DNA of 64,000 nucleotides. Origin: Branchiostoma lanceolatum (lineage: Eukaryota; Chordata; Leptocardii; Amphioxiformes; Branchiostomatidae). The DNA lies in NCBI RefSeq assembly GCF_035083965.1, contig NC_089723.1, forward strand, positions 35,781,193-35,845,192, read 5' to 3'. A program made the position numbers and the translations under genes. Shown piece by piece: positions 3,166 through 6,100 of the stretch; positions within the stretch are counted from its first letter, which is position 1, and each line of letters begins with the position of its first letter. Below the pieces are notes generated by a model. It was not told the DNA's origin. It saw nothing but the letters and a program-made list of their open reading frames with translations, and ran no database searches.

Positions 3166-6100
3166 GTGAGAGGCGGTTTGCATCGTTTTTATAGGGCATG
3201 GAAAGGTGTACCGGTAGTCAAGGAAACTATGACGTCATAAGATGGGTCGTAGACACTAACATTCGTCCAGATTTTCATGTGCCTCGATAGCTCAGTTGGG
3301 AGAGCGTTAGACTGAAGTCCCGGAAGCCGAAATACTGGCTTGACAAATTGGAGATCTAAAGGTCCCTGGTTCAATCCCGGGTCGAGGCAAGTTTTTTCTT
3401 CTTCTTTTTACTCTTTCTGTTCCTAAATATGCGACTTCTTGTTTAATACTTTTATATTCCGGAATTTTTTCGTTTTTTGAATGTTTTCGTTTTTCGGAGG
3501 TTTTATTTATTGGGAATTGAAACTGGAACCGGAACCCGTCGCAATCCAAGTGCTGTTGTTACGCGACAATTAAACATACTTTATGCTCAATACCAACAAA
3601 ATTCAATTGTGTTCCATTTCAACGTCATTGGTTCCAGGTCATTCCGCATAAAACAGACTGTCGACGCAATAGTCCGTCAAGAGTCTTGAGACAGGAAAAC
3701 CATTGAGCAGTGAAACAATAGAAAGTTGTTCGAGAACACGAATGATTGTCAATGACATGTACACTGACCTTATAGTTGTCACAAAAACGCCCCTCTAGTT
3801 AACAGATCTCAAACAAAATACAGTATCATTCTTTCCTTGCAACTCGTACAAACGCCATAGTCCGCATTATATAAGCGTGGACTGCGAGGCCCGCGTGAAA
3901 AAAATAGTCCAAAATTGGGAGAGAAAATACTGGTAGGCTGTTTGAGTTAACTGAAGAAAGAGACCGAAAGTTTTGTCTGACGAAAGTCGGTGTTGCCGCC
4001 GGGCGGTACGGTAGGCTTGTCGGCAGCTATGTCGTGTTGTAGCGGACAGGGTCGGCAGCCGTACGTGATAGCCAGCTGCACAAGCCAGACCAGAGTCAGG
4101 CCCATACGCGTCAAGGTGGGACTGTTGTAGACTCTCCTTTGTAGGCCTTCTAGGAGGAGCTGTGTTGTTTATTTTTCAACATATCGGGCCAAGGCTCTTT
4201 TCCTGGAAATAATTTTTTTTGCCGCCCGAGAAGAAAGAAAAAAAGATCTTCCCAGAAAAAGAACCTCCCGCGCGTGATATGTTGAAATTGGCGGATCAGC
4301 GCTCAGGGCCCCCAAAAATATACACCTGCGCCACCTAGCAGACCAGCAAAGAAGGTTAGAAGATCTTAGAAAAGTTGACAAACTCTTTCCCTCTCTTCGA
4401 TGAGTATTCTTAATCTATATCTAATGCAATTTTCTTGTAGATATCAACTCTTAGCAAGGTCAATGTACCGACATATCGTTAGAATATGCAAGCACATATA
4501 GCATGTAGAGCAATAATAAAGCTAGCCTGATACGTCGCGTTCTGTATATCGTGTTTAATGGGGCGTGGAGACGAGGTGAACCATTAGACAAGGAAAAGAT
4601 GACGTCTTTAGATGGAGGGTAGACCCTAAAACTCTACCTTTTTCTCATGTGCCTCGATAGCTCAGTTGGGAGAGCGTTAGACTGAAGTCCCGGAAGCCGA
4701 AATATTGGCTTGACAAAATGGAGATCTAAAGGTCCCTGGTTCAATCCCGGGTCGAGGCAGCTCTCTTTTTTCCCCATTTTGTTCCTGAATATTTACCTCT
4801 TATTGAACTTCTTAATTGCTTGTTTAGTACTTTTATATTCTAAATCTAGATCTAAGGCAATTTTCAACGTAGATATCAACTCTTAGCAAGGTCAATGTAC
4901 CGACATAGAATGTAGAGGAATAATAAAGCTAGCCTAGGTCGCGTTATGCATACTAGTAGCATGTTTTATGTAATATAGTCCCAACAACAGATAACATTGC
5001 ATCATTGTTAAAAACCTGTATTTGTTCCAAAAAAGTCACAGCGAGCAAAACAGTATGACATATCTGATCACATCTAAAGTATAACTTGTAACGACATCAC
5101 TCCTCGGTTACTAACTCCACATGAACACATGTTAACTACATATATAACACTTGGTCGTACTACGGGTGAGCGACCAAGCCCTGTCCTTCAAGAACGACAT
5201 ATGCACACAGTTAAAAATTGTCGGCCAAAAATTCCAGGGAAGGTATAGACTAAGCAAGGACACCCTATGCATTTTCAAGAAGAATTATAATTGATTATTT
5301 CGAATTGAGGTTTTCAGTATTTTACACGCGTTCGACGGGGGTTTTAGTGGGTTTTCATTTTCATCGTTCGTTGTTCTAGAACGCACATGTCGCCATGGCA
5401 ACGTGACAACACTAATGGCACGGCAGCGCAAATGACGCATGAAACATCGCTTGTTTTGTTGTTGTCAGAACAATCATAGCACAAACCGGGAACAGTTGAG
5501 AAGTTGGGATTATTTTTACCTTCCGTTTGGGCAAGAAATCGGTACATTTAATGCAAGAATTCGAGCATAATTTGTTGAAAATTGTTGACCACGTCATGAG
5601 TGACGTTTAGATGCAGTAGTCGCAATTTCACACCGTATCGCACCCGATGGCCATGCGCGTTTAAAGAGTCAACATGGGGCAAACGAGTCGCAAGCCGGCC
5701 ACTCAAGTCAGGGTAAAACCTACGAAGGTAAGACAACACTCAGGTGGACACATAGAAGTAGAATTCGGGGAGAAGAGGGTGAGAATAGAAGACAAATGAT
5801 TCGTTCGCGTCCATTTTGACCTGTCACTAGTGATACATGCAATTAGCCGTATTGATCTTTCTTGGTCAATATATGATATATACAACAAAGGCGTTGCATC
5901 CTCCGTATGCCTACATGTAGGTGACAATACCAAATATCTTCACTTCCGTTAACATTCCCTAAATCATCAAATATCGTATCTGTGGCAGAGAAATGATCAG
6001 TTTCGTCGGTAATATGATAGGAAAACAAAGGAAAAGCGAATGCCTAAGAAATCTGTACTCTGTAGTTCGGGATTTTATCATTTCTTAAACAAACTTTTCC

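Follow-up and report, generated by a model that had tools for sequence, protein, structure and literature searches.

The window, that is, the whole 64,000-nucleotide stretch of Branchiostoma lanceolatum DNA that was analyzed, contains two predicted tRNA-Phe(GAA) genes of 109 nt each (Table 1). The Rfam tRNA model placed both of them exactly where the original prediction had put them, both on the + strand. Their scores were identical and well above the gathering cut-off of 29 (E 2.3e-9 per gene), and the window contained no other Rfam match, of any family, at or above gathering score; a permissive Rfam scan down to E 5, which returned 15 matches, disclosed no third tRNA gene in the window. ARAGORN in its default mode (bacterial code, without introns) reported no tRNA in the window. 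Once the insert was removed, both sequences could be arranged as a cloverleaf, with the arms fully paired as had been claimed, although the lowest-energy fold differs (see below). The sole non-Watson-Crick pair, T51-G63 in the T arm, is common to human tRNA-Phe. The exons of the two copies were identical at all 73 sites and the introns at 34 of 36, the two intron differences already noted in the original prediction falling at gene positions 55 (C in copy 1, T in copy 2) and 68 (T and A, respectively).

Table 1. Features of the two predicted tRNA-Phe genes, of their surroundings and of other parts of the window.
Feature	Position	Strand	Basis or remark
Predicted tRNA-Phe(GAA) gene, copy 1	3281..3389 (exons 3281-3317, 3354-3389)	+	Rfam RF00005, 55.9 bits
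Predicted tRNA-Phe(GAA) gene, copy 2	4651..4759 (exons 4651-4687, 4724-4759)	+	Rfam RF00005, 55.9 bits
Anticodon GAA, copy 1	3314..3316	+	Intron placed at 37/38
Anticodon GAA, copy 2	4684..4686	+	Reading of copy 1 carried over, exons identical
36-nt intron, copy 1	3318..3353	+	Read at 37/38; copy comparison, placement test
36-nt intron, copy 2	4688..4723	+	34/36 identical to copy 1; copy comparison
Intronic hairpin, copy 1	3324..3341	+	AAGCC/GGCTT plus G-T pair
Intronic hairpin, copy 2	4694..4711	+	One pair longer (A-T gained at loop)
Possible pair C32 (3312):G(-3) (3351), copy 1	3312..3351	+	4-pair helix; not the lowest-energy fold
Possible pair C32 (4682):G(-3) (4721), copy 2	4682..4721	+	3 of 4 helix pairs; not the lowest-energy fold
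Presumed Pol III A box, copy 1	3288..3299	+	TAGCTCAGTTGG
Presumed Pol III B box, copy 1	3369..3377	+	GTTCAATCC
Presumed Pol III A box, copy 2	4658..4669	+	TAGCTCAGTTGG
Presumed Pol III B box, copy 2	4739..4747	+	GTTCAATCC
T6 run, likely Pol III terminator, copy 1	3392..3397	+	2 nt past the gene
T6 run, likely Pol III terminator, copy 2	4766..4771	+	6 nt past the gene
Upstream flank, copy 1	3182..3280	+	Homologous to 4548-4650
Upstream flank, copy 2	4548..4650	+	Homologous to 3182-3280
Candidate first coding exon a	3106..3165	+	MSCCGRGDEVHGDHRVKPFK, then GT donor; first-exon role inferred
Candidate alternative first coding exon b	4029..4115	+	MSCCSGQGRQPYVIASCTSQTRVRPIRVK, then GT donor; role inferred
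Candidate second coding exon	10474..10581	+	SGEDQEVPDDFDGPLSERSCRDVFF...WGGM; open frame
Match to choline transporter-like protein 1, residues 82-188	11686..12000	+	PDB 7wwb, E 2.3e-7
Matches to choline transporter-like protein 1, residues 379-521	16115..17517	+	Three pieces
ORF	32248-32724	-	No Pfam match
Phosphotriesterase-family exon	33380-33706	-	Pfam PTE, E 1.4e-10
Alcohol dehydrogenase-like exons	51526-60908	-	Pfam ADH_N at 60603-60908

The anticodon read in these genes varies with the position at which the intron is taken to begin. With introns allowed, ARAGORN detected both genes and labelled them Ser(GGA), a label that arises because the start of the 36-nt intron was shifted, namely to three bases earlier. 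In copy 1, excision of 36 nt after position 31, 32, 33 or 34 leaves the anticodon GGA. Excision after position 35, 36 or 37 gives one identical product, with the loop CTGAAGA and the anticodon GAA, and a start after position 38 likewise results in GAA. Since the starts after 35, 36 and 37 produce the same mature RNA, the canonical 37/38 position is allowed, and under this placement the anticodon is GAA, in agreement with the original prediction.

The spliced form shared 66 of its 73 bases with human tRNA-Phe-GAA (reference sequence as given in the extract of PMC11706605). Of the seven substitutions, six constitute compensatory changes at the acceptor pairs 4-69, 5-68 and 6-67, all of which remain Watson-Crick in the lancelet genes, and the seventh is the substitution of A57 for G57, one purine for another. 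The variable loop of both genes is 5 nt long. The identity bases for PheRS, which are taken here to be G20, G34, A35, A36 and A73, are all present in both genes. The reading suggested by the ARAGORN label, in which the genes would encode tRNA-Ser(GGA) and the intron would begin inside the anticodon, agrees with the four excision starts that yield GGA, and is nevertheless extremely improbable: tRNAs for serine carry a long variable arm, which is lacking in these two genes, and the tRNA body is of the Phe type. Moreover, eukaryotic tRNA introns are described as being located at position 37/38, one nucleotide 3' of the anticodon (extracts of PMC8479045 and PMC5330540), and the present introns occupy this position under the allowed placement that gives GAA. 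The phenylalanine isotype is therefore preferred, on the combined grounds of the intron that fits 37/38, the short variable loop and the similarity of the body to human tRNA-Phe.

The insert itself has the predicted length in both copies, and the proposed location after position 37 is one of the allowed placements. The conserved hairpin that had been described was recovered in both introns, and each of the two substitutions between the copies either keeps it intact or lengthens it. According to the rule reported for metazoan TSEN, position 32 carries a pyrimidine that pairs with a purine located at -3 of the intron (PMC8479045, in extract); C32 and G(-3) are found in both lancelet copies, where their pairing is possible and falls outside the lowest-energy fold. 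A four-pair anticodon-intron helix is known from the structure of human TSEN (PMC10539383, in extract). The corresponding pairs that could form in copy 1 are C-G, T-G, G-T and A-T, and in copy 2 the distal pair has become A-A and is lost. Work with a reporter in fly cells is described as showing no effect when the distal helix pair was lost, and inhibition of circle formation when the two middle G-U pairs were unpaired (PMC6614914, in extract). The change in the copy 2 helix would thus have occurred at the most tolerant place, given that loss of the distal pair was harmless in the reporter. When the intron was shuffled 20,000 times, the first pair was possible in 27% of the sequences, a run of the first three pairs in 6.9% and the complete set of four in 1.3%; chance alone produces a helix of this type in a few percent of cases, and the two copies do not represent independent cases. 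The intron belongs to a known kind, with an ordinary mechanism, and it is the isotype that is possibly unusual for an animal.

Without constraints, neither pre-tRNA had the cloverleaf as its best fold; the cloverleaf was less stable by 3.0 kcal/mol in copy 1 and 2.8 kcal/mol in copy 2; in these best folds, the CCGG of the intron was paired with a strand of the T arm. When the cloverleaf was imposed, the form with C32-G(-1) reached -34.8 kcal/mol in copy 1 and -35.4 kcal/mol in copy 2, versus -31.6 and -31.1 kcal/mol for the form with the C32:G(-3) helix (3.2 and 4.3 kcal/mol less stable, respectively). Relative to shuffled sequences, the z-scores of the folds were modest (-1.57 to -2.24) for the four stretches, which comprised the whole precursors and the intron-containing arms. 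The folding evidence was given little weight, because the same program likewise missed the cloverleaf of the spliced human tRNA-Phe.

One proposal concerning the acceptor stem, that its change served to prevent base pairing between the intronic GCCGAAA and the 3' acceptor strand, found no support when the human stem was placed on the lancelet pre-tRNAs in silico. The gap between the cloverleaf and the best fold was unchanged by the swap (3.0 kcal/mol before and after in copy 1, 2.8 kcal/mol before and after in copy 2), and the probability of acceptor pair 7 dropped from 0.90 to 0.70 and 0.73.

Both genes contain an A box and a B box, assignments that rest on the Pol III consensus as assumed here, and a T6 run follows each of them. 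The flanks upstream of the two genes are homologous, with 75 of 99 ungapped columns identical. Compared with this background, the exons were significantly more conserved (73/73; Fisher p 5e-7), as were the introns (34/36; p 0.014 versus the upstream flank, and p 0.014 versus its nearest 60 nt, of which 44 were identical). Downstream flanks were excluded from the identity test, because BLAST homology stops at the end of the tRNA gene, the sole homology detected by BLAST in the downstream flanks being a 22-nt match of 3438-3459 with 4819-4840. The greater likeness of both exons and intron argues that they have been held above the background by constraint or gene conversion; in the case of the intron, gene conversion and splicing constraint, singly or together, would have kept the copies alike.

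A direct repeat of approximately 120-140 nt flanks, on either side, the block that contains copy 2 (4548 to about 4840). The repeat was detected by BLAST in two pieces, 4405-4475 with 4836-4907 (92%) and 4498-4548 with 4905-4952 (84%), and is a possible footprint of the duplication or insertion of the block.

A feature of the locus that was absent from the original prediction is its genic context: the two tRNA genes are probably nested within intron 1 of a choline-transporter-like (CTL1) gene that has the same orientation. Three read-through frames of 7-17 kb and an ORF at 17227-17598, all of them on the + strand, match choline transporter-like protein 1 piecewise, the pieces ranging from residue 82 to residue 521 (PDB 7wwb and 9qu3; E 1.6e-4 to 4.3e-8), part of the PDB sequence searches of these frames having been run with E up to 1. 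The end of the match at 11686-12000 runs into a CT repeat, and a Pfam search with the three frames just named was negative. The frames of candidate exons a and b both start with MSCC and are followed by a GT donor after a whole codon; they have a 12-base start in common and little beyond it, and BLAST between the two exons gave no match. The frame at 10474-10581 presumably resembles the N-terminus of CTL proteins. From the MSCC frames with their GT donors, the latter frame and the CTL1 matches, the order on the strand is probably exon a, tRNA gene 1, exon b, tRNA gene 2 and the second exon. The CTL1-like gene may span 3106-18700 (+), its end near 18.7 kb being a guess from an ORF at 18242-18673.

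The last three features in Table 1 are encoded on the opposite strand. The ORF at 32248-32724 presumably resembles the C terminus of the polyprotein of a non-LTR retrotransposon. Within the alcohol dehydrogenase-like region, the segments 51551-51843 and 56351-56643 match each other at 83%; neither had a Pfam match, and both are assumed here to be dehydrogenase exons.

In deuterostomes, tRNA genes are reported to be scarce in the introns of protein-coding genes (49 of 1032 loci in a sea cucumber; PMC8580430, in extract). The probable position of the two genes inside such a gene thus fits the view of them as unused sequences of tRNA shape, either pseudogenes derived from tRNA or repeat (SINE) copies, as does an acceptor stem that is unlike the human one. 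The same stem, however, differs by three compensatory pairs, and the exons have remained identical although the flanks have diverged; the A and B boxes are intact, T6 runs are present and the permissive Rfam scan of the window revealed no further copy, all of which renders this view unlikely. The predicted order of exons and tRNA genes raises another alternative. Each tRNA gene follows a candidate first exon of the same orientation, and the genes could have been kept mainly as boundary or regulatory elements, bound by Pol III/TFIIIC between alternative first exons, whatever tRNA they produce; a tRNA-Thr gene of yeast is described as an insulator (PMC4090602, in extract). Such a role as the main reason for their maintenance is very unlikely, since the alternative first exons are predicted only, with no link between them in BLAST, and tRNA function alone explains the conservation.

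The preferred reading is that of tRNA function. On the basis of sequence, the two loci are very probably functional nuclear tRNA-Phe(GAA) genes, probably those of an animal, as judged from the tRNA body and the CTL1-like gene; they originated by local duplication, in this reading, and each of them carries a canonical 37/38 intron. RNA polymerase III would transcribe both, with RNase P and RNase Z trimming the ends of the pre-tRNA. Excision of the 36-nt intron would fall to the TSEN endonuclease, which would measure its distance from the tRNA body and rely on the C32:G(-3) pair. In lancelets, a complete pathway for 5'-phosphate ligation is reported alongside an RtcB-type ligase (PMC4090602, in extract), such that either could join these exons; the tRNA halves would be joined by RtcB-type ligation, possibly also by the 5'-phosphate pathway. 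The mature tRNA would read UUC/UUU; the intron, once released, may form a circle, as happens in Drosophila.

The intron at 3318-3353 contains a 9-mer, GCCGAAATA, which is the same as positions 1-9 of human tRNA-Phe, where the acceptor stem of the lancelet genes themselves differs. A shared 9-mer on either strand occurred in 1.2% of 20,000 mononucleotide shuffles; the match was spotted post hoc, and is therefore kept as speculation only. In an unlikely scenario, the tRNA-Phe of this lineage gained a canonical intron, so that splicing by TSEN became a requirement for supplying Phe-tRNA, a situation perhaps tolerated by virtue of the two exon-joining pathways; the 9-mer could then trace the origin of the intron from tRNA-Phe.

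If the genes are expressed, phenylalanine would have to be counted among the amino acids for which animal tRNAs can require splicing, and the intron would be either a gain or a retained ancestral intron, datable by comparison with related species. Expression would also provide a natural test of the interplay of TSEN, ligase and G37 modification in animal tRNA-Phe. Yeast tRNA-Phe is described as acquiring its methyl group at G37 only once it has been spliced (PMC4090602, in extract), and this order of events would become testable in an animal.

The statement in the original prediction that introns in tRNA-Phe are familiar from yeast was borne out, in that yeasts carry intron-containing tRNA-Phe (PMC4090602, in extract). 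The tRNA-Phe(GAA) of Saccharomyces cerevisiae and other yeasts is like that of the lancelet in isotype, anticodon and canonical intron position, and its C32 likewise pairs with a G of the intron (C32:G54 in the yeast substrate; PMC8479045, in extract). In contrast to yeast tRNA-Phe, the lancelet genes have a body near to the human one, adjoining CTL1-like exons and a 36-nt intron with an internal hairpin.

The further statement, that an intron in tRNA-Phe would be unusual for a chordate, fits the human examples Tyr-GTA, Ile-TAT and Leu-CAA, cited as isodecoders that exist solely with introns (PMC8479045, in extract), but a survey of animal tRNA-Phe introns was not found; among the matches listed from the open-licence literature, as represented by extracts, there was no report of an animal tRNA-Phe intron or of a catalogue of Branchiostoma tRNA introns, an absence that counts for little. 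Gapped patterns for intron-bearing tRNA-Phe had 0 occurrences in viral and prokaryote genome contigs; the intronless control, applied to the viral contigs, also gave 0, and the zeros are uninformative. Intron-bearing genes are reported to account for 28 of 429 tRNA genes in human (PMC8479045, in extract) and for 39 of 1068 in sea urchin (PMC4090602, in extract). With the three human tRNAs, as examples of metazoan intronic tRNAs, the lancelet genes have in common the canonical intron position, the Pol III gene form and the C:G anticodon-intron pair, the last of which is described in all 16 Drosophila intronic tRNAs (PMC6614914, in extract); they differ from them in isotype. Introns in tRNAs of odd isotype do have an animal precedent, namely the tRNA-Sec of Daphnia pulex (2017 report; PMC5330540, in extract). 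There the isotype is Sec rather than Phe and the introns are of 25 and 16 nt; as in the lancelet, two related animal genes carry introns at the canonical position in an isotype where they were not expected.
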